A stretch of DNA of 64,000 bases from Parvibaculum sp. (GCA_030649335.1 JAUSLL010000010.1:1-64000); one strand, 5' to 3'. Counted from the first letter of the stretch, positions 12,777 to 28,609 are shown. The notes: generated by a model not told the origin, from the letters alone. Numbers and translations: made by a program.

Positions 12777-15700
12777 TCAGTAGTCCCATTTCCAGTTGAC
12801 GCCCACTTCGCTTGACGCGTTCTGGCCGACCCTTGTCTCGACGGAAATCTGCGGCGTCACTTCGATCTCGACCTTGACCGAACTGTCACTGGCAAGCGCG
12901 CCCTGCTCGACGCCGACATAAACACCTTCCTGAATATATTTGCCTGCCGACACGGTCGTCGCGCCGGACGCGCCGCTGTCGATCCGCAACACGTCGAGCG
13001 ACAATGTTTCCTGCACGCGGTCCATAATGCCGCCGCCGGTACCGCCGATGCTGACGCCGGAAAGTTCGGCCAGCGTGCGGGCAAGTTGCAAGGTTTCGAG
13101 TGCTGACAATTCACCGACATCTTTGTCGAACAGGATATGCGACAGAATTTCGTCTTTCGGCAGGCTCGGGCTCGACGAGAAAGTGATGTCGGGCTTGGTG
13201 CTGTTGCCGCTCACATTGATCGTCGCCGTGAAATCATCGCGCCTATAGGTGAGCGTCACGGTGAAATTCGGCTCGACCGGATAGGTGCCGGGAAAAGTGA
13301 CATTCCCCTTCGTCAGCGTGAATGTCTTGCCCGCAAATTCCAGCGTACCGCGCTGGCTGTTCAGCGCGCCTTTGATGAGCGGCTCGTCGGCAGTGCCCGA
13401 AACGGTGAATGTGCCGGCCCAGAGTGAATCAAGCCCGCGACCGGTGATGCGCACCGGCTTTGTCGTCGCAAGCGTGAGATCAAGCAGGATCGGCAGCGGC
13501 GCAGCTTTCTGGTCTTGCGGCATCGCGCCTGTTGAATTGCGGCCATTGATCTCGATCACCTCGACAAGCGGCACATCGGCAGGAAGACTTTCAGGAATGC
13601 GGATCAGCATTTCTCTGGTCGTGAGCGAGCCGCTCAGCGTCGCAGGCTTTTCCAGCGTCGGCGGCAGAGCAGGGCCCGTGAGGCGGATCTCACCGTCGAT
13701 GGTCGCATCCACATCGGCGCGGCGCAGCAGACGCGCATTGCTCACCTGCGCTGTGATGGCAATGGCCTCAGCGGCACTTTGGTCAAGCGTCAGCGAACCC
13801 TTGGCATTGATCTGACCGTTCGCGCCGTCGCTCGCCGTCATTGTGAAAGAGGTGTCGCGGCTGTTCTGTGCTTCAATTTTTGCTTCGATGGATTTGAGCA
13901 CCGTGCCGGTCAGGAAGTTTTCATATGTCCCGTCGTTCAGCGTGGCCGTGCCGTCGATCACGGGCGCCGAAATATCGCCGCTGGCCCGCAAGGCAACGCG
14001 AGCAGGCCCCGCAACGCGCTGCCCGTTGAGTTCAACGAGAGCGGCAAGCGAGGCAAGCGGTCCCTCCCAGTCGAGCGAGCCGGACACTTTTCCGCGCGCC
14101 CCCAGTGTCGGGAAGGCTTGCCCGCGCGACCGGACAAAAGGCAAAGAGGCTTTAAGGTCAAACGGCTTTTCCGAAATGCCTTGTGCAGCAGCGACAAGCT
14201 CAAGCCGGTCTTTCGCCCAATCACCGTCGATGGTGGCATCGAAGGCAGGGCGCAGGTCGTCCACATCCTGCGCGAGGCGGATGCCGCTGAATTTCAATCT
14301 CGCCTTGCCCGTGTTGCGCGCGGCATCAAGTTCAAGCGTGCCGTTCAGAGCGCCTTGCACCGAACCTGCGGGCACAAACAGCGTTGCAAAATCGAGAGGC
14401 ATCTGGCGGAAGCGCAGATTGAGCCGCGCGGTAGAAGCGATGACAACATCGCCTTCAATCGCGCCCGCGCCGGTGGCGCCCGTCATGTCGATTCCGATGC
14501 CTTTGGCGACAATCCCGTTGTCGAGCTTGAGGGTGAGCGGCTTGGCAAGCGCGGCAGTCGCCGTGCCAAGAGCAAGGTCGAAACTTTGCAGCTCGATTGT
14601 CGTTGCCGCTTTGCTGCGCACCACGCCCTGCGACGAGAGCGTAAACGGCTTTGGCATCGCGTCTTCATGCGTGCCGAGCAGGTTCGCGTCGAAGGCCAGT
14701 GTATCGAAGGGGCCTTTGGCTTTCAGGTTCACACCGCTCAAATGCGTCAGCGCAAATTGTCCGGCAGCAGCGTAGAAGCCCGCCTCCATCACCGGCGCGC
14801 GGAAGAGATCGCTCAGTTGAATGTTGAGTTCCGTGCGGTCAAATGTGACGCCGCCCGCGTCAATGCGCGGGGCTTTGAAGATGACGCTCGCCGATTGTGT
14901 GCCTTTGACGGGCGTAGCGGTGAAGACAAGATCACCGACACCATTGAGCGGCAGGCCGGAAAAATCACCGACCGACGCAAGGTTGATGTGATCGCCGTTG
15001 ATACTTGCCGTGATGAGGCCCGCTGTGTCGAGTGCGGCAAGGCCTGTGAGCTTGCCGCCGAAGACCTCCCCGTTGATGGCGTCAAGCCGCGCGCCGCCTT
15101 CGGTCGGCAGCGTCAGCTGCGCGTCAAGCGAGGCATTGCCGGGCTCGCCCTTGTAGCGGATGGACAGGGCACCGCTGCCGCCTGTAACAGCGACAATATC
15201 AGCAGACAGGCTTTCCGTTTTGACGCCGCTCACCGCACCATTGGCAAGCGTCGCCACGAGATGCGCAGCAGGCGCGTCCATTGTGCCGGTCAATGTCACA
15301 TCGGCTTTGACAGCGCCCGACGCCTCGCCGCGGGGCAGCAGGCGCGCGATGTCACCCGTTTTGAAATGCGCCTCGCCGGAAAGCTGCTCTTGTGCCGACA
15401 GCGCAACATTGCCCGACAGCGTGTAAGCCCCCGACAGCGGCGTAACGGTGAAGGACGGCAGCGCGTAACCGCCTTTGCCAAGTGCCAGCAGCGATCCGTC
15501 GGCGGTGACACTGCCGGCGAACGCATCAAGCGCAGGATCGCCGGTTTTCACGTCCGTCGTGCGCAGAAAAAAATCACCCGCCATGTCGCCATTGTCCGTC
15601 ATGCCGAAAGGCGACAGACGCAAAGTGGCCGCACCGCTGAGCCTTCGACCGGGAAGATCGCCGAGCGCCGCAAGATCGTTCAGTGACGCTTCCGCATCGC

Positions 15701-16976
15701 CCTTGAGGCTTGAACCGTCCAGCGCAACTTTACCTGCGAAATTCGCCGTGCCCGCAGCAGACGTGACGGTGAAGACCGATACATCAGCAATGTTTTCGCG
15801 CAGATTGATTTTCGCCACGGTGTCGAAGACGAGGCGGTTGAGCCCTGCATTGTCTTTGGCGTCCACGAGCGCATCAACGCCGGTGATCGTGCCCGATGCC
15901 GAAAAGGGATGAGGTGCAGGCAGCGAGGCAGAGGCGAACGCGGCGCGGCCGTTGAGCGTCAGCGGTCCGGCACTCAGTTGCAGGTTTTCAACCGAGAGCA
16001 CGTCCTTCCCGCTCCAGCGAAAATCGGTTGCGAGGTCAATCTTGTCTGCCTCAACGCTGTCTTTGAGCGCATTGGCGATGACGCGGCCCGATGCTTTGGC
16101 GGCAAGCACAAGATCAAGGTCGCGCGACCATGTGCCCGTCGCGCTGAATTCAGCCGTGAGCTTGTTGCCGCCATCCAGTGCCATAAGGCCGGTGACGGCG
16201 CCGTCCTTCGTGTTTGCCGACGCGGTGAGGCTGACCGCATCAAGCTCCGACACACCGAAGGCGCGGATGAGGCCTGTGTGGCCCGCGTCGCCGTCTTCGA
16301 CAGCGAGGTCAAGCGTCAGGTGGCGGGCGCGGGGCGAGAAGACCGTGTCGATTTTGTAAAGACCTGTGACACCGTCCGTCCGCGTGGCGTCGAGCGAGAG
16401 GGACAGCGCGTTGCGCTCCAGCGCGGCGGCACCTCTCAGATCAAGCGTGGCGAGTGTTCCCGCCGCACCCGAAGCGGCAAGCGCGCGATGGAGTGTGATC
16501 TCATGCACCTTGACTGCATCGAGACGTATGGCGACGGGGAGCGATGGCAGGTCGAGCGAAAGCCCCGACGATGTATCTTCTTCCGCCGTGCTCACAGGCG
16601 CCCGCAAAAGGGTCAGCCCCCGCGCGTCGAGCGTCTCGACATTCACTTGCGCCCGCAGCAGCGACAGAGGCGACCAGACAAGATCGGCCTCAGCCAGTGT
16701 CAGCCAGTCGCCTTGCGTGTCGGCAATGCGCATATCGGTGATGTGAAGTTGGCGTGGCCAACTGCCCGATATATCGCCGACAGATATTGTCATCTCGTCG
16801 GAGTTCACCGTCGAGAGCACATAGGTGAGCACCTGTTGCCGCAGCGATGAGAACTGCAACAGCCCGACCGTCAGAGCGACAACAACGAGTGCCGCCGCAA
16901 TGACCGCCAGCAGCGACTTCAGCAGGAAGCGCATGAGGTAAGGCGCTGACATGGTGTTTGTTTTTTGCGCGCTCAT
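12777..16976 (-). CDS. tamB: Translocation and assembly module protein TamB
   Basis: A 1399-residue inner-membrane-anchored periplasmic protein that works with TamA in inserting outer-membrane proteins or in lipid transport across the envelope. One N-terminal transmembrane helix (about 16-37, LLAVIAAALVVVALTVGLL) is followed by more than 1000 residues of repetitive beta-strand sequence (AsmA-like, bridge-type). The C-terminal DUF490/TamB domain ends in VGVNWKWDY, an aromatic terminus suited to insertion in or contact with the outer membrane. Its ATG overlaps the tamA stop as TGATG (16978-16974), so translation is coupled. The large open frames seen on the opposite strand here have no recognisable family features and are shadows. 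Confidence 0.93.
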   Translation of the reverse strand: MSAQKTNTMSAPYLMRFLLKSLLAVIAAALVVVALTVGLLQFSSLRQQVLTYVLSTVNSDEMTISVGDISGSWPRQLHITDMRIADTQGDWLTLAEADLVWSPLSLLRAQVNVETLDARGLTLLRAPVSTAEEDTSSGLSLDLPSLPVAIRLDAVKVHEITLHRALAASGAAGTLATLDLRGAAALERNALSLSLDATRTDGVTGLYKIDTVFSPRARHLTLDLAVEDGDAGHTGLIRAFGVSELDAVSLTASANTKDGAVTGLMALDGGNKLTAEFSATGTWSRDLDLVLAAKASGRVIANALKDSVEADKIDLATDFRWSGKDVLSVENLQLSAGPLTLNGRAAFASASLPAPHPFSASGTITGVDALVDAKDNAGLNRLVFDTVAKINLRENIADVSVFTVTSAAGTANFAGKVALDGSSLKGDAEASLNDLAALGDLPGRRLSGAATLRLSPFGMTDNGDMAGDFFLRTTDVKTGDPALDAFAGSVTADGSLLALGKGGYALPSFTVTPLSGAYTLSGNVALSAQEQLSGEAHFKTGDIARLLPRGEASGAVKADVTLTGTMDAPAAHLVATLANGAVSGVKTESLSADIVAVTGGSGALSIRYKGEPGNASLDAQLTLPTEGGARLDAINGEVFGGKLTGLAALDTAGLITASINGDHINLASVGDFSGLPLNGVGDLVFTATPVKGTQSASVIFKAPRIDAGGVTFDRTELNIQLSDLFRAPVMEAGFYAAAGQFALTHLSGVNLKAKGPFDTLAFDANLLGTHEDAMPKPFTLSSQGVVRSKAATTIELQSFDLALGTATAALAKPLTLKLDNGIVAKGIGIDMTGATGAGAIEGDVVIASTARLNLRFRQMPLDFATLFVPAGSVQGALNGTLELDAARNTGKARLKFSGIRLAQDVDDLRPAFDATIDGDWAKDRLELVAAAQGISEKPFDLKASLPFVRSRGQAFPTLGARGKVSGSLDWEGPLASLAALVELNGQRVAGPARVALRASGDISAPVIDGTATLNDGTYENFLTGTVLKSIEAKIEAQNSRDTSFTMTASDGANGQINAKGSLTLDQSAAEAIAITAQVSNARLLRRADVDATIDGEIRLTGPALPPTLEKPATLSGSLTTREMLIRIPESLPADVPLVEVIEINGRNSTGAMPQDQKAAPLPILLDLTLATTKPVRITGRGLDSLWAGTFTVSGTADEPLIKGALNSQRGTLEFAGKTFTLTKGNVTFPGTYPVEPNFTVTLTYRRDDFTATINVSGNSTKPDITFSSSPSLPKDEILSHILFDKDVGELSALETLQLARTLAELSGVSIGGTGGGIMDRVQETLSLDVLRIDSGASGATTVSAGKYIQEGVYVGVEQGALASDSSVKVEIEVTPQISVETRVGQNASSEVGVNWKWDY

Positions 16977-18823
16977 CAGAAGGCCTGCCCGAGCGAGAAA
17001 TAGACCTGAAAACTATCGTCAACACCCGAACGCTTGTTGAGCGGCACGGCAATATCGGCACGCACAGGGCCGATGGGCGTGTAATAGCGCAAGCCCAGCC
17101 CCGCGCCCCACTGCAATCCCTTGGACGGTTGCGGTGTGCTTGTCGAATAGGCATTGCCGCCATCGACGAATGCGACGACGCCGAAACTCTTGCTCACGCG
17201 CCAGCGTGCCTCGGTGCTGGCTTCAACAACCGAGCGTCCGCCGGTCGGGTCATTTGCTGCATCCAGCGGTCCGACAAGCTGATAGCCATAGCCGCGGATG
17301 GAGCCGCCGCCACCGGCGTAAAAGCGCAGCGAGCCCGGCACATCAAGCGTTTCCTGTGCGAGCATAAGCCCGTAGCGTCCGCGAAGGGCCAGAGTGAAAT
17401 CAGGTTGCGCGCCAAAGCTCCAATAGGTTGAGCCGGATGCTTCAAACTTTGAAAAGGCAGCCGCACTGCCCGCACTCGTGCCGACATAGGGCGTGAACGC
17501 ACCGCTGAGGCGCGAGCCTTTGGTCGGATCGAGAAGATTGTCCGATCCGTCATAGCGCAGCGTCAGCGGCACGCCGAACAGACGATAGGAACGGGCGCCG
17601 GAATTTTCCTCGGTGCGGTAGATTTCAAACGACACACCCGCTGTGCCCTGCAGCGTCGGTGTCAATTGTCGCGACAGACCGGCACCAAGCTTGGCGCTGA
17701 GTTCGCTGTAAGCGTCGGTCTCTTCATTGGCAAACTCGAAACTCCCGAGCAGGCTTTGATCGGGGCGCAAAAAGCGCGGCTTGGTGAATTCCGCTTTGGC
17801 CGCTTGCTTGGTCTGCGCGACGGATATTTCCAGACGCAGTTTTTCCGCCCGCCCGAAGAGATTGCGATGTTCCCAAAAACTCTTGGTGCCCGCGCCTTCG
17901 TCAGACGACCAGCTCGCGCCGATGCCGACCGACCGTTTGGCACGTTCGCTTAAGCTGATACTTGGCGTCACGCGGTTGCCCTCGGCATCCACAATTTCGA
18001 TGACGACCTGATCGAACAATCCCGTGCCGCGCAGCGCGGCGACCGTTTCATCGGCCTTGCGGCGGTCAAAGAGGTCGCCCTCCTTGAAGGCCGCGAGACC
18101 TTCGATGTAATCAGCCTTGGTGCGGCCTGCTTCGTGTTCGGCATCTTCATTTTTGAGATGCATCGCGCCGAAATAGCGTGGCTCTCCGGCCTTGATCGTC
18201 AGGGTGATGTCGGCGACTTGCGCGGCCATATCGACGATGACCTCACGCTTGACGAGTTTCGGTGTCGGGTGGCCGTGGTTTTCAAGCCAGACAAGCGCAT
18301 CGCCCGTGAGGTCGATGATGCGTTGGGCACGCGCGGCGCGGTTCGGCTTAAGGCCGAGGGGGGCTGCGTCATACAGCAGGTCCGCCTCGTCGGACGGATG
18401 ATCGGTGTAGATGAAATTGAAACTGCGGATCATCGTGCGCGGGCCGAGCGTCACACGGTAGATGAGGTTGAAGCTGCCGCCGGTCGCTTCCTCGATGACG
18501 GCTTCAATGCGCCCGTTGAAATAGGCCTGGCTGCGCAAAACCTTGTTGAGGTGCAGGGCTTCTTCATTGGCGCGGCGGCGCAATTGTCCCAGCGTGGCGG
18601 GGCTCGTCGCGTCCGTGGTCTTACCCAGCGCCACAGCATCGGTGATCTGGGCTTTGATCTCGTCAGGCAGCTTGGTGCCTTTGACCGAAACGCTAAACTT
18701 GAACGCAGGGGCGTCGGCGGCCAGCGCCTCGCGATCGGACGAAAAAAGCAACCCGCAGAGACAAAGCAGTGCAAAAACCGCAAAAATAGCGTTATGGACG
18801 CCGGACGAACGCAAATGATGCAT
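16976..18823 (-). CDS. tamA: Outer-membrane assembly protein TamA (BamA/Omp85 family)
   Basis: An Omp85-family outer-membrane protein of about 615 residues and partner of TamB. POTRA-like repeats occupy about 40-300, and a 16-strand beta-barrel follows, with RGYGYQLVGP in the conserved lid-loop position and a last strand ending in FSLGQAF, a C-terminal aromatic. I chose ATG 18823 because it gives a clean 35-residue signal peptide (FAVFALLCLCGLLF ... EALAA). The frame is also open to ATG 18931 or 18919, but neither has a Shine-Dalgarno and both put 30-odd odd residues before the signal peptide. The start remains uncertain. It is divergent from a TetR gene with a shared intergenic palindrome. 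Confidence 0.9.
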   Translation of the reverse strand: MHHLRSSGVHNAIFAVFALLCLCGLLFSSDREALAADAPAFKFSVSVKGTKLPDEIKAQITDAVALGKTTDATSPATLGQLRRRANEEALHLNKVLRSQAYFNGRIEAVIEEATGGSFNLIYRVTLGPRTMIRSFNFIYTDHPSDEADLLYDAAPLGLKPNRAARAQRIIDLTGDALVWLENHGHPTPKLVKREVIVDMAAQVADITLTIKAGEPRYFGAMHLKNEDAEHEAGRTKADYIEGLAAFKEGDLFDRRKADETVAALRGTGLFDQVVIEIVDAEGNRVTPSISLSERAKRSVGIGASWSSDEGAGTKSFWEHRNLFGRAEKLRLEISVAQTKQAAKAEFTKPRFLRPDQSLLGSFEFANEETDAYSELSAKLGAGLSRQLTPTLQGTAGVSFEIYRTEENSGARSYRLFGVPLTLRYDGSDNLLDPTKGSRLSGAFTPYVGTSAGSAAAFSKFEASGSTYWSFGAQPDFTLALRGRYGLMLAQETLDVPGSLRFYAGGGGSIRGYGYQLVGPLDAANDPTGGRSVVEASTEARWRVSKSFGVVAFVDGGNAYSTSTPQPSKGLQWGAGLGLRYYTPIGPVRADIAVPLNKRSGVDDSFQVYFSLGQAF

Positions 18824-18970
18824 GGTTCGGGCGATTGGGAGGGTTTTGCCCCGGAGTCTCCACGCAAAAAGGCGCGAAGACAGGCAACGCACAAAGGCAA
18901 AAAATCCTGTAAACAGCATGGACGGGATCATACAGAGATTGCCGCGGCGACCAACCAGACTTGTGAATTT

Positions 18971-18995: not shown

Positions 18996-19715
18996 ATGAA
19001 AACTAAAGACACCATAACCGCACCCGCCAAGGGGGCGGCCCGACCGCGCAGCGACACACGTCTGCGCCTTATCATCGCTGCCGAGAAGCTCTTCGGTGAC
19101 AAGGGCATTCACGCCGTCACGCTGAAGGAAATCAACGGCGCGGCGGGTCAGCGCAACGAAAGCGCGCTGCATTATCACTTCGGCTCCAAAACCGCCTTGG
19201 TGGAATCGATCCTGCTTTATCGTTCCGCCGACATCGACAAGGACCGCGGCGAACGTGTTGAGGCCTTGCTGCAGGCGGGCGAGGAAAAAGATCTCGCGGC
19301 CATCCTGCGCGCGACGTTCCTGCCGATGCTCGAATTGCTGAAAGAGGAAGACGGCGTTCGCTTCATGCGCTTTTTGGCGCAGGTGTTGAACGATCCCGAT
19401 TTTGATCTGCCGACAATGGTGACGCGTGGGCAGCTGCCGGGCGTGAAGCGCGCCAATGCGCTGATCGTCGCTTCGCTCGGCGACATCGCCCCTGAAATTG
19501 CCATTCAGCGGCAACGTTTTCTCATCGAGATGATCGTCAGTTCAGCAGCCATCTGGACGCGCCACCATGATTCCGTGAGCGAAGCAGCCGAACGCGAATT
19601 TTTCATCGTGGCCTTGCTTGATTCCATCGAAGGCTTCCTCAAGGCGCCTGTTTCGAAGGAAGCGCTCGAAAAATTGAAGAAGGTCGTGAACAAGAAAGAA
19701 AAGAATCTGGCATGA
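18996..19715 (+). CDS. TetR/AcrR-family transcriptional regulator
   Basis: A 239-residue regulator. The N-terminal helix-turn-helix spans about 20-66 (LIIAAEKLFGDKGIHAVTLKEI ... ALHYHFGSKTALV), with the typical YHFGSK recognition-helix end. The C-terminal ligand and dimer domain is not assignable and its inducer is unknown. It probably binds the palindrome 18971-18985. Its stop overlaps the ATG of the DUF1330-like gene (ATGA at 19712-19715), so the two are translationally coupled and the partner may be involved in making or using the inducer. Confidence 0.88.
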   Translation: MKTKDTITAPAKGAARPRSDTRLRLIIAAEKLFGDKGIHAVTLKEINGAAGQRNESALHYHFGSKTALVESILLYRSADIDKDRGERVEALLQAGEEKDLAAILRATFLPMLELLKEEDGVRFMRFLAQVLNDPDFDLPTMVTRGQLPGVKRANALIVASLGDIAPEIAIQRQRFLIEMIVSSAAIWTRHHDSVSEAAEREFFIVALLDSIEGFLKAPVSKEALEKLKKVVNKKEKNLA

Positions 19716-20128
19716 CGTCACCGCACGAACCGACAGAAGCGCAGCATAAGATTTTTGCCGAACTCGATCAGACCAAACCCATCGCCATGGTGAACCTGCT
19801 CAAATTTCGCGCGCACGCGAAATACGAAGACGGGCGGGATGCCGGTGATCTCACGGGTTCGGCTGCCTATGGCCTCTATGGTCAGGTCGCGATGGCGAAA
19901 ATCACCGAGGTCGGCGGGCGCATGTTCTGGGCCGCCCCCAGCGCCCAAACATTCATCGGCACAAGCGATGATGAATGGGATGTTGTGGCGATTGTGCGCT
20001 ACCCGAACCGCGCGGCTTTTCTGCGTATGCTCGCGATGGAAGATTACCGCGCCGCAGGCGTTCACCGCGAAGCAGGGCTCGAGCGCACCGTGCTCATTTC
20101 CTGTCCCGGCGACGCTATTCCCGCCTGA
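19712..20128 (+). CDS. DUF1330-like small protein
   Basis: A 138-residue protein of the ferredoxin-like dimeric alpha/beta-barrel type, resembling the DUF1330 group. PIAMVNLLKFR near the N-terminus, WDVVAIVRYPNRAAFLRML in the middle and YRAAGVHREAGLERTVLI near the end match that group. Most members have no known biochemical function. The start is fixed by the 4-base overlap with the upstream tetR-type gene. It converges on an alpha/beta hydrolase with only 9 bases between stops. Confidence 0.7.
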   Translation: MTSPHEPTEAQHKIFAELDQTKPIAMVNLLKFRAHAKYEDGRDAGDLTGSAAYGLYGQVAMAKITEVGGRMFWAAPSAQTFIGTSDDEWDVVAIVRYPNRAAFLRMLAMEDYRAAGVHREAGLERTVLISCPGDAIPA

Positions 20129-20137
20129 TCGGGTTTT

Positions 20138-21019
20138 TTACTTTTCCAAAAACGCATTGGTCAGCGATATGAATTCGTCGAACTGATCGTGATGCACCCA
20201 ATGTCCCGCCTTCTCGATGGTGGCGACTTCCGCATTCTTGAAATGCGACGCCCGACCATCGGCGGCGGGATCGCTCGCCCAACTATCCGCGCCGCGCATC
20301 AGCAGCGTGGGGCAGGTAACTTTTCCCCAGAGGTTCTGCGTCGCTTTCACATCAAACCCATTGGGTGAGAAGGTGCGGACGTAATTGTCAAACTTCCAGC
20401 TATAGGTACCGTCCTCGTTCTGCGTGATGCCATGCAGGGTAAGATGGCGCGCACGCTCGGGCGACAGATGCGGGTTTTCGTCCTGCATCCGTTTGTAGGC
20501 GTCTTCGATGGAGACATAGCGGCGCGGCAGACGCGATGATGATTTGCGCAATTCGGCAATCCATTTGCGCAACCGTTCGTCCGGCGCGTCGGTCATGCGT
20601 TCGGCAATCATCTTCGGGCTGGGCCCGAGCCCTTCGATGACGACAAGCTTTTTCACCGTATCGGGATAAAGCCCGGTATAGCGCAGCGAAATCGCCCCGC
20701 CCATGGAATGGGAGACAATCGTCAGCGGCGCGAGCTTCAGCTGATGGATGAGCTGCGCAATGTCATAGACATAATCGTTGAATTCATAAGTCCCGCCGAC
20801 CATCCACTGGCTGTCGCCATGGCCCCGCAGATCAGGCGCGATAACGTGATAGCGATCACGCAGAGATTGCGCGACCCAATCCCAGTTGCGGCAATGGTCG
20901 CGCCCGCCATGCACCAGCAGCAGCGGCGGCTTGTCCTCATTGCCCCAATCGACGTAATGCAGCTTCAGGCGCTGCGAGACATAGAACTGCGAGACGGGGC
21001 CGATGATCTGCTGGGACAT
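20138..21019 (-). CDS. Alpha/beta hydrolase
   Basis: A 293-residue cytoplasmic hydrolase. HGG (about 37-39) is the oxyanion region, PDLRGHGDS is typical of the family, SHSMGG (about 103-108) holds the serine nucleophile, LLMRGADSW holds the acid, and EKAGHWVHHDQ (about 270) the histidine. A Ser nucleophile argues against an epoxide hydrolase, which would use Asp, and fits an esterase, lactonase or C-C bond hydrolase. It is the last gene of a minus-strand run with the SOI-like membrane protein (59 bases upstream) and the ferritin-like diiron protein, so it may process their product. Confidence 0.85.
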   Translation of the reverse strand: MSQQIIGPVSQFYVSQRLKLHYVDWGNEDKPPLLLVHGGRDHCRNWDWVAQSLRDRYHVIAPDLRGHGDSQWMVGGTYEFNDYVYDIAQLIHQLKLAPLTIVSHSMGGAISLRYTGLYPDTVKKLVVIEGLGPSPKMIAERMTDAPDERLRKWIAELRKSSSRLPRRYVSIEDAYKRMQDENPHLSPERARHLTLHGITQNEDGTYSWKFDNYVRTFSPNGFDVKATQNLWGKVTCPTLLMRGADSWASDPAADGRASHFKNAEVATIEKAGHWVHHDQFDEFISLTNAFLEK

Positions 21020-21078
21020 GAAGCGATTGAATCCATTTTTTGATGTGGCGCCAGTCTAGCCCATCACCTGCGGCAAGT

Positions 21079-21576
21079 TCAGCCCTTTTCCGCTTTGAGG
21101 AATCTCCACAGCCCCAGAACCGTCAGGCCGAGCATAATATGAACGGCGACAACGGGCGGCCAGCCAAAGAGATAGATCACATCATTGGCGAGCCCCGCCT
21201 TGAACGGCCCGCCGCCAAAGGCCAGCCCGCGCGTCCCGAAGATCGCATTGAAAATCGTCGGCACAGTAAAGAGCCAGCCCGTGACAAGCGACGACCAGAA
21301 CAGCCAGACATATTGTTTGGGCGTGAGGCGCATGAATTGCCCGCCGAGACCGATGGCCATCAGCAGCAAGCCTTGCGTGATGCCTTCCATATGCGCCATG
21401 CGCCAGGCGCGTCCGTCGTCGGGAATGCTGACCGGAATGTCGATGGGCAGCGGCCAGAGCACAATCGCGTTCAGCAGCGCGAAGAACCAGATCCAGCCGA
21501 TGGATATGGCAAGAATGAAAAGCCCCGTGCCGTTGAGAAACAAGAGCGCGCGCATCCGTGTCGGCATTTCGGTCAT
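21079..21576 (-). CDS. Four-helix membrane protein resembling styrene-oxide isomerase (StyC)
   Basis: A 165-residue integral membrane protein with four predicted helices (about 10-42, 60-80, 88-110 and 130-158). From memory of Pseudomonas StyC, the alignment is nearly gap-free in two stretches: AWRMAH (H62) against its GWARAH, where the His binds heme b, and GW(x)8F(x)5RGLxFG shared word for word in helix 3 and its loop. The catalytic Asn and Tyr of StyC fall on Q68, F and T here, so the reaction may differ. It starts 18 bases after the diiron gene's stop, with an ATG and a weak Shine-Dalgarno. Could also be a member of a wider family of unknown heme membrane proteins. Confidence 0.5.
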   Translation of the reverse strand: MTEMPTRMRALLFLNGTGLFILAISIGWIWFFALLNAIVLWPLPIDIPVSIPDDGRAWRMAHMEGITQGLLLMAIGLGGQFMRLTPKQYVWLFWSSLVTGWLFTVPTIFNAIFGTRGLAFGGGPFKAGLANDVIYLFGWPPVVAVHIMLGLTVLGLWRFLKAEKG

Positions 21577-21594
21577 GATTTTCTCACTGTTGTT

Positions 21595-22479
21595 TTATGC
21601 AGGTAACGCGACGGGCGTGGCTTCGCGCAAGCGCGACGTATCAAGACGGGCAGGCGCGCCGGCGTCCTCGAGATGAAGCGCCGCCCAGCTCTGCATCCAT
21701 TGAGGGTCCGCCACGCGACGCGGGTGATAGCCCGGCACGAGAATGCGCGCCAAGCGCGGCACGAGCTTACGCAGGATACGCGTGATGACGCCGAGCAGCG
21801 CAAGGCGCGAACGCCAATTATACCAATGCCCGTCTGCTTTCAGCAGGCGGTGATAGCCGCCGCGTGTCCGCCAAAGAATATGGGCGGTCGCGTAAGCCAA
21901 TCCGACAATGCGCCAGAACTGGCTGCCTGAAATATGCGCGAAGACATCGAAAGTGACGTTCTTATGTTCGATCTCTTCGACAAAATGCCAGAGCACCAGC
22001 GAAGCGACGGCGCTGTCAGCGCGCCCGAACAGAAACTCGCGGTCTTCGATCAGCATATGCCCGATGGCCAGCGCCATAGATTCAAAACCTTCAGCGTATG
22101 CCAGGTTGAAGCGCAATGAGCGATGCGTGCCGAGCCGGTCATAGTCCGCGGCAAGCTGCGCCTCGCACGCATTGACGGCCTCGGGGCTCGCCGCTTTCAA
22201 TTCATCGTTGAAGCGGCGGTGCTGGCGGTAATGAGCGGATTCTTGCGCACAATAAAGATCAAGCTCGCGCACCAGCTTTTCGTCGGTGATCAGCGGGCGC
22301 GCCTCGCGCATGGTCTTGATGAGATAAGGCTCCAGATAGGGCATGGCGAGCGAGGCGGCGTTGACGATCTGCGAAAACTCAGGCCGCGCCGCGTTCCAAT
22401 GCAGGGCGCGCGATCTGGCGAACGCAAATGGCGGGCGGCGCACGGTCATTCGTTCTGCGGTGCCGGCACTGTCGGTCAT
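21595..22479 (-). CDS. Ferritin-like diiron protein (PF10118, annotated as metal-dependent hydrolase)
   Basis: A 294-residue protein of the family usually called predicted metal-dependent hydrolase. The sequence shows a full four-helix-bundle diiron set: E50; E80xxH83 (QESAH); E130, with E133 nearby; and E169xxH172 (EEIEH). This pattern is that of ferritin-like carboxylate-bridged diiron proteins, many of them oxygenases, and is inferred, not shown, to bind iron here. The C-terminal third is basic and includes a hydrophobic patch (about 190-200 and 232-245), hinting at membrane association. It is the first gene of a minus-strand operon and diverges from a TetR gene across a clear palindrome. 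Confidence 0.75.
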   Translation of the reverse strand: MTDSAGTAERMTVRRPPFAFARSRALHWNAARPEFSQIVNAASLAMPYLEPYLIKTMREARPLITDEKLVRELDLYCAQESAHYRQHRRFNDELKAASPEAVNACEAQLAADYDRLGTHRSLRFNLAYAEGFESMALAIGHMLIEDREFLFGRADSAVASLVLWHFVEEIEHKNVTFDVFAHISGSQFWRIVGLAYATAHILWRTRGGYHRLLKADGHWYNWRSRLALLGVITRILRKLVPRLARILVPGYHPRRVADPQWMQSWAALHLEDAGAPARLDTSRLREATPVALPA

Positions 22480-22515
22480 GGTAATTCCCCAATTAGACGA
22501 AACCCTCTAATTGGA

Positions 22516-22532
22516 GTGTCTAGTCTAAACAC
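22516..22532. promoter_or_regulatory. TetR-type operator candidate
   Basis: GTGTCTAG-T-CTAAACAC is a 17-bp dyad with one mismatched pair in 8-bp arms. It lies in the 112-base gap between the divergent diiron gene (start 22479) and a TetR gene (start 22592), where it could control both promoters. Confidence 0.6.
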
Positions 22533-22591
22533 CCTTATTGTCAAGTCTGGCAAAACGAGACAAAGGCCGCTACTTAAGAGGCGGAGGCCAA

Positions 22592-23233
22592 ATGGGAAAT
22601 CGCGACCGCATTCTGGAATTGAGCTTGAAGCTCCTCAACGAGGAGGGCGCGCAGGCGGCTGGCACCACGCGTATCGCGCAGGTCTTGGGCATTAGCCCCG
22701 GTAATCTCTATTACCATTTCAGAAATCGCGAGGCGATTGTGCGCGGCCTGTTTGCCGGGCTTGAGGCCGAGTTTCGCGCGATGATGGTGGACGATGTCGT
22801 GCCGCCCATTTTGCCGGAACGCTTTGCCGCCTTTTATCTGCGCAGCTTTGACGTCGCCTGGAACTATCGTTTTTTCTTTGGCGGGCTGCATCACCTTTTG
22901 CGGCAGGACGAGGAACTGGCAGCCTCCTACCGCCAGTTACAGGCATGGGCCATTGACGAGCTTGAAGGCATCGTCCGCCAGCTTGTCAAAGACGGCAGCA
23001 TGGAAAAGCCCAGAAGCAAGAACGGATTGCGCTCCCTTGGGCTAAACACATGGATCATCTGGATGAACTGGATCCGCTTTGTGCAGATATCAGGACGTGA
23101 TCAGGTGACGCGGGACGACATGATCGAAGGCGTGGGGCAGATATTTGATCTGCTGGTGCCCTATCTCGACCCCGCCTTTGAAAAAGCCGCCCGTCGCGTG
23201 TTGACGCGCGAATTGCGCAGCAACCCTACTTAG
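22592..23233 (+). CDS. TetR/AcrR-family transcriptional regulator
   Basis: A regulator of about 213 residues. The HTH (residues 1-50) reads RILELSLKLLNEEGAQA ... TRIAQVLGISPGNLYYHFRNR, ending in the classic YYHF recognition helix. The C-terminal half resembles the TetR_C group found beside fatty-acid or aromatic catabolic genes, but the ligand is unknown. I chose ATG 22592 because GGAGG (22583-22587) precedes it; an upstream in-frame TTG at 22538 would overlap the promoter. It is divergent from the diiron/SOI-like/hydrolase operon and convergent with the SDR (4-base overlap of stops). Confidence 0.85.
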   Translation: MGNRDRILELSLKLLNEEGAQAAGTTRIAQVLGISPGNLYYHFRNREAIVRGLFAGLEAEFRAMMVDDVVPPILPERFAAFYLRSFDVAWNYRFFFGGLHHLLRQDEELAASYRQLQAWAIDELEGIVRQLVKDGSMEKPRSKNGLRSLGLNTWIIWMNWIRFVQISGRDQVTRDDMIEGVGQIFDLLVPYLDPAFEKAARRVLTRELRSNPT

Positions 23234-24090
23234 CCTTTGGCGGCCTCGTCGCTGCCCATCGTGCCGAGCAATCCGCCTTTGCCGCCCTCACCGCGAAACA
23301 TGATCTTGCCATAGGAGCCGGGCAGCAGGCGGATGAACCAGTCGATGATATGCGCGTCCATGCCGATCAGAATGCGCGGCTTGTTTTTCTTGATGCCTTT
23401 GATGATTGTCTGCGCCGCCTCATCGGGCGTGGTGCGCGCGAGCTTGTCAAAGCCCGACATGGCGGTTTCACGTTCCGTGGTCTGAACACTTTGCAGGAAG
23501 CGTGCATTGCGCAGAATGTTTGTTTTGATGCCGCCGGGATGCACGCAAGACACTTCAATGCCCGAGCCGCGCATCTCGTGGCGCAGCGCCTCGGTAAAAC
23601 CGCGGATCGCGAATTTCGCCGAGTTGTAAGCCGCCTGCGTCGGCACGGAGAAAAGCCCGAAGATCGACGAAACATTGACGATGTGCCCGCCGCCTTTTTT
23701 GCGAAGCTGCGGCAGAAAGGCTTTGGAGCCATAGACCATGCCCCAGAAGTCGATGTTCATCACCCATTCGAAATCATCGTAGGCAAGCTCTTCAATCGTG
23801 GCGACCTGCGCCACGCCCGCATTGTTGATAATAATATCCGCGCCGCCGAACTGACCTTCGATCTCCTGCGCAAAGGCGTAAACCGCCTCGCGTGACGACA
23901 CATCGAGAAGATAGGTCGAGACAGTGCCGCCTGCGGCTTCAACCAGTTTGACGGTTTCCGCAAGACCGGCGCGATCAACGTCGGCAATGGCGACGCGGGC
24001 CCCCTCGCGTGCCAGCGCCACAGCGGTTGCCCGGCCAATGCCGCTCGCCGCGCCCGTCACCACCGCCACTTTGCCCCTGATCTCGGTCAT
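23230..24090 (-). CDS. Short-chain dehydrogenase/reductase (classical SDR)
   Basis: A 286-residue NAD(P)-dependent oxidoreductase. TGAASGIG (about 12-19) is the cofactor glycine motif, NNAG (about 90) follows, a serine sits in VNVSS (about 141), and the catalytic pair is YNSAK (about 155-159). The acidic residue after the second strand (ADVDRAG) favours NAD over NADP, as inference. A basic/aromatic C-terminal tail (about 255-286) is longer than in minimal SDRs. It lies beside the diiron/SOI-like operon but in its own unit, and could oxidise or reduce a carbonyl intermediate of that pathway. Confidence 0.85.
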   Translation of the reverse strand: MTEIRGKVAVVTGAASGIGRATAVALAREGARVAIADVDRAGLAETVKLVEAAGGTVSTYLLDVSSREAVYAFAQEIEGQFGGADIIINNAGVAQVATIEELAYDDFEWVMNIDFWGMVYGSKAFLPQLRKKGGGHIVNVSSIFGLFSVPTQAAYNSAKFAIRGFTEALRHEMRGSGIEVSCVHPGGIKTNILRNARFLQSVQTTERETAMSGFDKLARTTPDEAAQTIIKGIKKNKPRILIGMDAHIIDWFIRLLPGSYGKIMFRGEGGKGGLLGTMGSDEAAKG

Positions 24091-25508: not shown

Positions 25509-26885
25509 ATGGCGATGGACGATATTGAAAAAACGCCTCTGTGGCTGACCATCTTGCGTGGTGTGTGGGCGGTCTTGCGCCTGCTCGTCACCGGCCTGAC
25601 CGGCGGGCGCACCTTCATCGTCGCTGCCGCCGTTCTCTTCACGCTTCTGGCGCTCAGTGACGGCATGCCGGTCTGGCTCGCTGTACTCAGTTTTGCATGG
25701 CTTGCAGGCATCGCCGGTTTGCGCAGCCTGCTGCTGGGTGAAACAGGCCGCGCCATGCGCGAGCCTGCGAGCGCGCCTGCCGGTGGTCTTGCAGGTCTCG
25801 CCAGCGGTGCCGGTCGCACCATTCTCATCGAAATGCCGGACCCCGTTGTCGTGCTCGACGGCAGCGGCCGCATCATCTTTTGCAACAGGGCGGCCGAAAC
25901 GCTGATCGGTCTCTACGCGACCGGCAAGCATGTGGCGACCATGCTGCGCAGCGCGGCATTGATGACGGCGGTTGATGACGTGCTGAAAGGGGCCGGCGCG
26001 CAGATCATTGACTACAATCAGCCCGTGCCCGTCGAACGCAATTACACGGGCTTCGTCACACCGATCGAAGTGGACACAACGCCCGCCAACGGCCTCAGCG
26101 AAGCCTCGCGTCGTCGCCGGGCGCGCGCCGTGCTGATCGTCTTGCGCGATGTCACAGAGGCCCGCCGCGTCGAAGACATGCGCGTCGATTTTGTGGCCTT
26201 TGCAAGCCACGAACTCAAAACGCCGCTCGCGTCCCTGTCCGGTTTCATCGACACATTGCGCGGCCACGCCAAGGACGATCCGGAAGCGCAGGATCGCTTT
26301 TTAAGTATCATGGCTGATCAGGCCGAGCGCATGCGCCGCTTGATCGAAGATCTTCTGTCGCTCTCGCGTATCGAACTGCGCGAACATGTGCGGCCGAGCA
26401 AGATTGTGGACATGCTTTCAGTGGTCAACGACATCACAGACGGTCTGAGCCACACGGCAGCCAAAACCGACATGGAGATCACCGTAACTTCGGCGGCCAT
26501 CCTGCCGCGTGTGCGGGGCGAGGCAGAAGAATTGGGTCAGGTCGTCCAGAACCTCGTCGATAATGCCTTGCGCTATGGCCGTTCCGGCAAACGTGTCGAG
26601 GTGACGCTCGCGCCCGATACGCGCGGCGGCAAACCCATGCTGCGTCTCAGCGTGCGCGACTTCGGAGCGGGCATCTCGCGTGAACATCTGCCGCGCCTCA
26701 CCGAGCGTTTCTATCGCGTCGATGCCGCCGCCAGCCGCGCCAAGGGCGGCACGGGCCTTGGCCTCGCGATCGTCAAACACATCGTTAACCGCCATCAGGG
26801 CACGCTGTCCATCGACAGCGAGCTCGGACAGGGCTCGACATTCACTGTCTTGATTCCCGCCGCCGCAGAAGAAATTCCCGCCTGA
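25509..26885 (+). CDS. phoR: Phosphate-regulon sensor histidine kinase PhoR
   Basis: A 458-residue inner-membrane kinase that phosphorylates PhoB when phosphate is low and is restrained by PhoU. Two N-terminal helices (about 33-50 and 56-76) anchor it, with no large periplasmic sensor, as expected for PhoR. A PAS domain (MPDPVVVLDGSGRIIFCN, about 112-190) follows, then the HisKA box FASHELKTPLASL with the phosphorylated His, and the HATPase with N box NLVDNALRYG and G boxes DFGAGI and GGTGLGLAIVKH. phoU and phoB lie downstream. The pst transporter genes that usually separate phoR and phoU are missing. Confidence 0.92.
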   Translation: MAMDDIEKTPLWLTILRGVWAVLRLLVTGLTGGRTFIVAAAVLFTLLALSDGMPVWLAVLSFAWLAGIAGLRSLLLGETGRAMREPASAPAGGLAGLASGAGRTILIEMPDPVVVLDGSGRIIFCNRAAETLIGLYATGKHVATMLRSAALMTAVDDVLKGAGAQIIDYNQPVPVERNYTGFVTPIEVDTTPANGLSEASRRRRARAVLIVLRDVTEARRVEDMRVDFVAFASHELKTPLASLSGFIDTLRGHAKDDPEAQDRFLSIMADQAERMRRLIEDLLSLSRIELREHVRPSKIVDMLSVVNDITDGLSHTAAKTDMEITVTSAAILPRVRGEAEELGQVVQNLVDNALRYGRSGKRVEVTLAPDTRGGKPMLRLSVRDFGAGISREHLPRLTERFYRVDAAASRAKGGTGLGLAIVKHIVNRHQGTLSIDSELGQGSTFTVLIPAAAEEIPA

Positions 26886-26956
26886 AAGCCGCGCAAAGCG
26901 GTTCAAAAAGCCTTAAACTAAGCCAATTCGGCCCCGAACCGGCCCGGAACTGCCAA

Positions 26957-26974
26957 CTGTCAAAAAAACGACAT
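26957..26974 (+). promoter_or_regulatory. Candidate PHO box upstream of phoU
   Basis: The 18-mer CTGTCAAAAAAACGACAT matches 14 of 18 positions of the PHO box consensus (two CTGTCA-type half repeats 11 bases apart). It lies about 130 bases before phoU. An overlapping perfect inverted repeat ACGACA-N6-TGTCGT (26968-26985) may be an alternative protein site or hairpin. Confidence 0.45.
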
Positions 26975-27102
26975 GCTAGTGTCGTACACAATTCGCGGGG
27001 CACCGGTAGCTTTCGCGCGACCCGCCAGCATTCGTGCAAAACGAACAGTGCCTTGCTTAGGATCACACCTGATCCTGAGGCGAACAGGAGAGACGTAACG
27101 TC

Positions 27103-27813
27103 ATGGACCACACAGTCAAATCATTCCAGGAAGAGCTGGACGCCATCGCCGCCAGCATTGCCCAAATGGGCGGATTGGCTGAAGCCCAGCTCGCCGGGGC
27201 CATTGAGGCCGTGTCGCGGCGCGATACGGCGCTCGCTGAACTCGCGGTGAGCCAGGATCGTCGCATCGACGTGCTCGAGCATGAAATCGAAGCCCGTGCA
27301 GTCCGCGTCATCGCGCTGCGCCAGCCCATGGCGTCCGATCTGCGTGAAGCCATTTCGGCGATCAAGATTTCAACCGACCTCGAACGTATCGGCGATCTCA
27401 GCAAGAACATCGCCAAGCGCGCCATTGTCATTCAGGGCGATTTCGACACGCCCGTGCGCCTCATTCAGGGCATCGCCCGCATGGGACGTCTCGCGCAGGT
27501 GCAGTTGAAATCAGTGCTCGACGCCTGCTCCAACCGCGACGCGCAACTCGCCATCGAAGTCTGGAAGGGCGACGAGGAAATCGACGAAATGTACAACTCC
27601 GTGTTCCGCGAGTTGCTGACCTACATGATGGAAGACCCGCGCACGATCGGTGTCTGCACCCATCTTCTGTTCATTGCAAAGAACGTCGAACGTATCGGCG
27701 ACCACGCAACGAACATCGCCGAGACGGTCCATTACGTCGTCACCGGCGAAACCATGTTGGACAATCGTCCCAAAGGCGACACGACAAGCTCGACACCGGT
27801 TCCCATTCAATGA
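27103..27813 (+). CDS. phoU: Phosphate signalling protein PhoU
   Basis: A 236-residue cytoplasmic protein made of two three-helix bundles, each carrying the metal-binding signature: DLERIGDLSKNIAKRA at about 90-105 and NVERIGDHATNIAE at about 192-205. PhoU links the Pst transporter to PhoR and keeps PhoB inactive when phosphate is ample. A clear AGGAGAG precedes ATG 27103. It follows phoR after 217 bases that hold a candidate PHO box, so it may have its own PhoB-driven promoter. phoB starts 16 bases downstream. Confidence 0.95.
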   Translation: MDHTVKSFQEELDAIAASIAQMGGLAEAQLAGAIEAVSRRDTALAELAVSQDRRIDVLEHEIEARAVRVIALRQPMASDLREAISAIKISTDLERIGDLSKNIAKRAIVIQGDFDTPVRLIQGIARMGRLAQVQLKSVLDACSNRDAQLAIEVWKGDEEIDEMYNSVFRELLTYMMEDPRTIGVCTHLLFIAKNVERIGDHATNIAETVHYVVTGETMLDNRPKGDTTSSTPVPIQ

Positions 27814-27829
27814 AGGCGGATAAAAACGC

Positions 27830-28609
27830 ATGTCGACACTTCTTGCCCCTGGTGCTGCAAAAGCCCCGAGCGCCTCAAGAGATCGCGAAGCGCCGACCAG
27901 TTTCGAGCGCCGCATGAAACCGACGGTCATGATCGTCGAGGATGAAGAGGCGCTTTCGACGCTGCTTCAGTACAACCTCGAAAAGGAAGGCTACAAGATC
28001 ATCGCGACAGCGGATGGCGAAGAAGCCGCTCTGATGATCCGCGAAGCCGCACCCGATCTCGTGCTACTCGACTGGATGCTGCCGAGCCTGTCCGGCATCG
28101 AGCTTTGCCGCCGCCTGCGTGGTCGTCCGGAAACGCGCAATCTGCCGATCATCATGATCACGGCGCGCGGCGAAGAAGCAGACCGCATCCGTGGTCTCGA
28201 CATCGGTGCCGACGATTACGTGACGAAACCCTTCTCGATGACCGAGCTTCTGGCGCGCATCCGCGCCGTCATGCGCCGCATCCGTCCGGCATTGTCCGAA
28301 GACCTCGTGACCTTCGGCGACATCGTCATCGACCGCGCCGCCCACCGCGTGCGCCGTGGCGAACGCGAAGTCCATCTCGGTCCTACCGAATACCGTCTCC
28401 TCGATCACCTGATCCAGCACCCCGGTCGCGTTTTCAGCCGCGAGCAATTGCTCGACGCCGTTTGGGGCTCGGACGTCTACGTCGAAGCCCGCACTGTTGA
28501 CGTCCATGTCGGCCGCCTGCGCAAAGCCCTCGTCGAAGAAGGCGAACGCGACCCGATCCGCACCGTCCGCTCCGCTGGCTACTCCCTCGACGAACAATTC
28601 AGCCGCTAA
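27830..28609 (+). CDS. phoB: Phosphate-regulon response regulator PhoB
   Basis: An OmpR-family response regulator that activates the Pho regulon. The receiver domain starts at MKPTVMIVEDEEAL with the acidic pair ED; the phospho-acceptor Asp is in LVLLDWMLP, the Thr in IMITAR and the Lys in VTKPFS. The winged-helix domain (about 155-255) has the OmpR pattern LGPTEYRLLDHLI and RTVDVHVGRLRKAL. From ATG 27830 the protein has a 28-residue extension absent from normal PhoB. Start 27914 would remove it but lacks a good Shine-Dalgarno, whereas AAGGCGGA precedes 27830. Either start is possible. Confidence 0.93.
   Translation: MSTLLAPGAAKAPSASRDREAPTSFERRMKPTVMIVEDEEALSTLLQYNLEKEGYKIIATADGEEAALMIREAAPDLVLLDWMLPSLSGIELCRRLRGRPETRNLPIIMITARGEEADRIRGLDIGADDYVTKPFSMTELLARIRAVMRRIRPALSEDLVTFGDIVIDRAAHRVRRGEREVHLGPTEYRLLDHLIQHPGRVFSREQLLDAVWGSDVYVEARTVDVHVGRLRKALVEEGERDPIRTVRSAGYSLDEQFSR

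Follow-up and report, generated by a model that had tools for sequence, protein, structure and literature searches.

A conserved gene pair in Parvibaculum encodes a predicted diiron oxygenase and a member of the styrene-oxide isomerase superfamily of membrane proteins

In styrene-oxide isomerase (SOI, StyC), four-helix subunits form a trimer, and haem lies where they meet. The enzyme is paired with an oxygenase in styrene degradation pathways, it has so far been treated as a lone styrene-degradation enzyme, and the report of its haem dates only from 2024. Here we describe a gene pair in a 64,000-nucleotide stretch of DNA from Parvibaculum sp. (GCA_030649335.1 JAUSLL010000010.1:1-64000; this whole stretch is called the window), in which a gene for a membrane protein of the SOI superfamily lies beside a gene of family PF10118 whose product is predicted to be a diiron oxygenase. 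In SOI, the Y103A and N99A mutants are dead and the N64A and D95A mutants are impaired (PMC11374702); in the Rhodococcus enzyme, the haem is ligated by H57, and R111 may bind a propionate (PMC12502698). On the diiron side, the described proteins to be compared are AurF, CmlI and DnfA (PF11583) and the CylC halogenases. The DnfA ligands are E88, E123xxH126, E182 and H209-x3-E213-xx-H216, and AurF and CmlI are alike by the authors' account (PMC9478400), while the CylC motifs are QExxH and HxxDExxH (PMC12101540).

An oxygenase together with an SOI-fold protein is a known kind of arrangement, that of styrene degradation; to this kind the locus adds a diiron partner, a changed pocket and a regulated module that is complete in itself. 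The two genes of the pair are:

21595-22479, minus strand: PF10118 ('Metal_hydrol') gene, 294 aa, predicted R2/AurF-like diiron oxygenase
21079-21576, minus strand: SOI-superfamily membrane protein gene, 165 aa, four helices

We favour, with a probability of roughly 45%, the reading that the pair is an oxidation module in which the diiron enzyme would oxygenate a hydrophobic compound and the haem protein would transform the product. An initial annotation of this DNA knew of no described pathway with this gene set, and the open-licence literature that we searched agrees as far as the pair is concerned: we found no description of a PF10118-SOI pair, no mention of COG3687, no link between 'metal-dependent hydrolase' and SOI and no link between SOI and haem-copper oxidases, and PF10118 was mentioned by a single paper, in another context.

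In the PF10118 protein, we found that the family match is full-length (E 6e-54; 183.8 bits against a gathering score of 33.2) and that there is a ligand set of E50, E80, H83, E133, H165, E169 and H172 (QExxH and HxxEExxH). Across 59 PF10118 homologues, the invariant columns include E50, Q79-E80-x2-H83, E133 and H165-x3-E169-x2-H172. In the AlphaFold2 model (predicted local distance difference test, pLDDT, 95.7), the ligands sit on four long helices (33-63, 67-97, 122-145 and 156-183) in R2-type order. When this model was searched with Foldseek, nothing scored below 0.001 (best E 0.022), and the list was rich in R2, CmlI, R2lox and acyl-ACP desaturases; when the same candidates were compared with VIA, Z was 11-12 with R2, CmlI, AurF and R2lox, and the top matches were all dinuclear-metal proteins. 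Because such Z values are weak by themselves between helical bundles, the diiron case is carried by the ligand set. High confidence attaches to the prediction of an R2/AurF-like four-helix bundle, whose 3-His/4-Glu set is invariant; for the ferritin-like diiron protein of the initial annotation, a diiron-type ligand set and fold are supported by the ligands in the 59 homologues, by their place on the core helices of the predicted fold and by the VIA matches. The family description, 'predicted metal-dependent hydrolase', implies hydrolysis and is unsupported, whereas the invariant residues resemble a diiron-oxygenase site, and by these residues the family seems to be an oxygenase.

Kinship to the AurF family at the level of sequence is at best marginal. 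PDB sequence searches with the PF10118 protein, as a single sequence or as a profile, found no diiron relative; the Pfam AurF model PF11583 does not match the window protein, and it matches one of the 59 relatives, at 1.2e-4. The likeness to AurF, CmlI and DnfA lies in the E / ExxH / E / H-x3-E-xx-H spacing and in their standing as structural neighbours at Z 11-12; the differences are an identity of ~10%, Q79 at the position of the AurF second-shell residue D135, and the membrane haem partner. Haem aldoxime dehydratases act on N-O compounds by dehydration, and the diiron enzyme could itself be an AurF/CmlI-like N-oxygenase, with the haem protein dehydrating or rearranging its N-O product. Published accounts largely reserve the 3-His/4-carboxylate spacing for AurF-type N-oxygenases (PMC12101540; PMC9478400). 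However, Q79 is like the residue of the CylC halogenases (QExxH), the AurF model fails on the window protein, and amine-metabolism genes are not recurrent among the flanks, and we consider N-oxygenation very unlikely. The CylC proteins share both the QExxH and the HxxD/EExxH motifs; they differ in that PF10118 has an invariant Glu, E133, in the place of AurF E196, and there is no halogenation context here.

The 165-aa membrane protein has no Pfam match, and the NCBIfam StyC model NF045734 scores it at 28 bits (E 1.9e-6), below the cut-off of 150. A profile of 82 relatives matches SOI 8PNU at 2.4e-36; since this profile includes StyC-side relatives, a structural test of the window protein is cleaner. 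With the AlphaFold2 model (pLDDT 96.5), 8PNU was the sole Foldseek match below 0.001, and VIA gave Z 16.8 with a root-mean-square deviation (r.m.s.d.) of 1.9 over 154 residues. SOI residues H58 and R112 are retained as H62 and R116, whereas N64, D95, N99 and Y103 are replaced with Q68, T99, F103 and T107; the protein is therefore a member of the SOI superfamily and not StyC. Of the StyC-like protein proposed in the initial annotation, the fold and the predicted haem-binding residues stand, and the epoxide-handling residues of StyC do not. Set against StyC (8PNU/8PNV; NF045734), the window protein shares the fold, the haem His, the haem Arg, the four-transmembrane (4-TM) topology and the pairing with an oxygenase; it differs, beyond the four replacements, in E64 for G60 and in an extra His146 in TM4, and its partner is a diiron-type protein where that of StyC is a flavin monooxygenase.

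Among 87 aligned SOI-superfamily sequences, H62 is present in every one and the haem arginine is nearly universal, whereas the tyrosine equivalent to Y103 is retained on the StyC side (clade S) only. E64 is invariant in clades A, B and W, the last being the clade of the window protein, where the StyC side has G. His146 is specific to clade W (33/33 aligned rows) and absent from the other clades; because H62 comes 7 residues after TM2 begins and H146 7 residues after TM4 begins, and these helices are parallel, the two would sit at about equal depth in the model. After SOI, VIA matched the membrane-protein model best to subunit I of haem-copper oxidases, over four of its helices (Z ~11.7, r.m.s.d. 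3.3, 138 residues), although a Z of 11-12 between helical bundles may reflect mere arrangement; a distant relation of the SOI fold to the 12-helix haem-copper oxidases may be worth testing. The plasmid collection that we searched held no SOI-like match.

When one genome per species was scanned for relatives of the membrane protein, we found 56 loci in Alpha- and Gammaproteobacteria, Binatia, 'Deltaproteobacteria' and Acidimicrobiales. A PF10118 gene immediately adjoins the membrane-protein gene in most of these loci, down to ~30% identity, and the adjacency spans Alpha- and Gammaproteobacteria, Binatia and Acidimicrobiales. By clade, a PF10118 gene is adjacent in 31/35 cases for W, 24/26 for B, 8/17 for S (two of the 17 being PDB sequences) and 0/9 for A; these counts are not independent events, since several loci come from related genomes. 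In a sample drawn by PF10118 alone, from 385 genomes of the class, an SOI-like neighbour was found for 19 of 25 genes in the SOI-linked PF10118 clade vs 0 of 25 examined in the other clade (Fisher 1.2e-8, shared ancestry uncorrected). This other clade consists of solo PF10118 members, none of which, where examined, has an SOI neighbour, and two solo paralogues in the same genome as the pair (G000:C48:5316-6062 and G000:C56:3904-4638) belong to it; the AurF Pfam model matches the first of them at 1.9e-4.

PF10118 genes of the same lineage as the window gene also adjoin SOI-type proteins with Y103, some with N99 (L019-L021, L031, L032 and the second copies in L059/L060). At L059:7881-8994 and L060:7986-9008, a PF10118 gene is followed by tandem SOI-superfamily genes, one without and one with N99/Y103, which suggests that the two types are not redundant. 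At L098:4675-5715 (also in L008), a membrane-protein gene of the window clade is tandemly duplicated after one PF10118 gene. The genome of the window has a second SOI-superfamily gene at G000:C2:107018-107305 (L030/L092/L097), which is of clade A, carries HENANSR and has no PF10118 neighbour; on one side of it is a DJ-1/AraC-type regulator gene, on the other a gene for a MaoC hydratase. We found no consistent partner among the neighbours of clade-A genes. At L074:6596-8309, a clade-A gene lies 164 bp after an FAD_binding_3 monooxygenase gene, in a StyA/StyC-like arrangement.

Two points lead us to favour oxygenation followed by rearrangement: PF10118 genes of the same lineage also adjoin SOI-type proteins in which the catalytic tyrosine is intact, and StyC, too, comes after an oxygenase. 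The wide adjacency of the pair, the arrangement at L074 and the dedicated paired operator described below also speak for this reading. The module would be kept silent by its own TetR repressor, with the substrate presumably as inducer. The PF10118 protein has a strongly amphipathic cationic C-terminal helix (residues 228-246, helical moment 0.73), a possible membrane-docking surface by which it would attach to the membrane face; it would then activate O2 at its diiron site and oxygenate a hydrophobic substrate. The trimeric haem protein would take the oxygenated product directly within the membrane, and its ferric haem, acting as a Lewis acid by analogy with StyC, would rearrange an epoxide-like or similar intermediate to a carbonyl. 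In Parvibaculum, the products of neighbouring genes for a short-chain dehydrogenase/reductase (SDR) and a Ser hydrolase may process this product further. The substrate would differ from styrene oxide, since the StyC pocket residues that position the epoxide oxygen are replaced. Several points weigh against this reading. The four residues on which SOI activity depends are those that the membrane protein has lost; L059 and L060 carry Y103-less beside Y103-bearing copies, so the Y103-less type may not isomerise at all; we saw no gene for a ferredoxin or a reductase in the module; and an hhalign comparison of the PF10118 profile with an AurF-family set, which is shallow and mixed, was not significant.

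Clades B and W have lost the catalytic network, and L059 and L060 have one copy of each type in tandem, which leaves room for another role, in which the SOI-like protein would be a membrane haem-b redox partner and anchor that takes electrons from quinol, or shuttles them, to the diiron protein. The haem residues are kept where the catalytic ones are lost, the clade-W H146 near the depth of H62 could give a bis-His haem, the second-ranked structural kin are haem-copper oxidase helices, and a reductase or ferredoxin is not prominent among the flanking families. However, His146 in a single clade gives no account of the association in the other clades, the inferred topology would put the haem on the periplasmic side whereas the PF10118 protein has no evident signal peptide, there is no support for a quinone site, and the haem-copper oxidase Z may come from helix arrangement alone; we regard this role as unlikely. 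We put forward only tentatively a broader proposal, that the two proteins suffice for oxidation at the membrane, with an SOI-fold haem-b trimer as the dedicated redox or chemical partner of a 3-His/4-Glu diiron oxygenase; in that case, StyC would represent a specialised branch within a larger oxygenase-partnering family of haem membrane proteins.

The gap before the pair and the divergent gene beyond it hold the candidate control elements:

22538-23233, plus strand: TetR-type repressor open reading frame (ORF), 231 aa counted from TTG
22592-23233, plus strand: TetR gene with the probable start ATG; PF13972 1.6e-23, PF00440 1.1e-9
22493-22510: operator copy 1, TTAGACGAAACCCTCTAA; exact TTAGA-N8-TCTAA, from genome occurrence and phylogenetic footprint
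22511-22528: operator copy 2, TTGGAGTGTCTAGTCTAA; one mismatch, abuts copy 1 and overlaps a 17-bp dyad
22539-22544, minus strand: candidate -35 box TTGACA of the operon promoter, from aligned upstream sequences

Control had initially been assigned to the divergent TetR gene and the 17-bp dyad at 22516-22532 (GTGTCTAGTCTAAACAC). The gene is there and the dyad is present, if imperfect, but the operator is better defined as two abutting 18-bp palindromes, TTAGA-N8-TCTAA, since orthologous loci keep this paired site. Two sites, spaced 18-21 bp and with no more than one mismatch in either, are present in every one of the 12 distinct loci that have a divergent TetR orthologue. Among loci lacking the orthologue, only L044 and L049 carry a site, a single one in each case, and the TetR of L049 is co-directional and 33% identical. 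The exact site of copy 1 occurs once in the 3.54-Mb genome, and outside the gaps there were three operator matches in 553 kb, so the repressor would, judged by sequence, have one target region. With a helix-turn-helix and a C-terminal domain, a divergent gene and a palindromic operator in the gap, the protein has the features of a TetR repressor and is predicted to bind there. Its start is probably ATG 22592 (M-G-N-R-D-R-I-L-E) rather than TTG 22538, since the L040 orthologue appears to begin at this position (M-S-N-R-D). TTGAC of the -35 candidate is common to TetR-bearing orthologues, and the -10 region would overlap operator copy 2; the TTGACA box was not among the sites from a consensus promoter scan, and shuffled sequences gave more sites, so the promoter call rests on the cross-species alignment. 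Even inside the genus, TetR control does not extend to every pair: in L005, L034, L036, L037, L042, L054 and L056, the operator is missing along with the TetR gene, and an SDR gene precedes the pair on the same strand. In the Parvibaculum relatives L005, L034 and L042, it does so directly, with no TetR between.

Two further genes adjoin the pair and its regulator in the window:

20138-21019, minus strand: alpha/beta hydrolase gene, 293 aa, accessory; Pfam Abhydrolase_1 2.6e-27, Ser nucleophile S105 in SHSMGG read from the translation
23230-24090, minus strand: SDR oxidoreductase gene, upstream, possible accessory; Pfam adh_short 1.7e-54

ORF calls confirmed the layout first described for the locus, with three minus-strand genes separated by 18 and 59 bp and a divergent TetR gene, and the Pfam match and S105 uphold the third as a Ser hydrolase. 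An epoxide hydrolase or haloalkane dehalogenase was considered for it and rejected, as the nucleophile is Ser105 and not Asp. A hydrolase orthologue lies beside the pair in the Parvibaculum loci L034, L036-L038, L040-L043 and L047, and the joint occurrence of all three genes in ~10 Parvibaculum loci, often with an SDR gene upstream, goes beyond chance and would suit a three-gene catabolic pathway in which the hydrolase (and the SDR) perform obligatory later steps. However, the hydrolase lies ~1.8 kb from the pair in L054, is separated from it by two or more genes in the sister genus (L098, L099), and is absent from other pairs, even in L035 and L039, whose proteins are 78-82% identical to those of the window. 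Such a pathway is improbable. The hydrolase is accessory to the pair: of the three-gene neighbourhood initially proposed for a search across Alphaproteobacteria, the first two genes stay paired even beyond that class, and the hydrolase accompanies them only in Parvibaculum and its family, which removes it as a core member.

The oxidation module that we favour is confined to the pair. Outside Parvibaculum, where 65 genes directly flanking the pair in 36 loci were compared, the recurrent families are mainly regulators (TetR 12, MEDS 3, AraC 2, PadR 2), the others are scattered enzymes and apparent housekeeping genes, and there is no shared enzyme beyond a few glutathione S-transferase, SDR and AMP-ligase genes. 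A wholesale pathway reading from the flanks was rejected for want of a common enzyme, and because the flanks are mostly local regulators, the two proteins look sufficient. On the other side of the operon in the window, a second TetR gene overlaps a DUF1330 gene by 4 bases (18996-20128) and is convergent with the operon; these two genes are retained beside the hydrolase in several Parvibaculum loci. Further out, translations read by eye show an ordinary-looking TamB/TamA-like pair (1399 and 651 aa, 12777-18931) and an equally ordinary-looking PhoR-, PhoU- and PhoB-like set at 25509-28609.

Taken together, these data suggest that SOI is one branch of a wider membrane haem family, in which three of the four sampled clades (S partly, B and W) partner PF10118. 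Such a two-gene system, under tight regulation and with high-confidence predictions for each half, lends itself to direct testing and may yield new biocatalysts.

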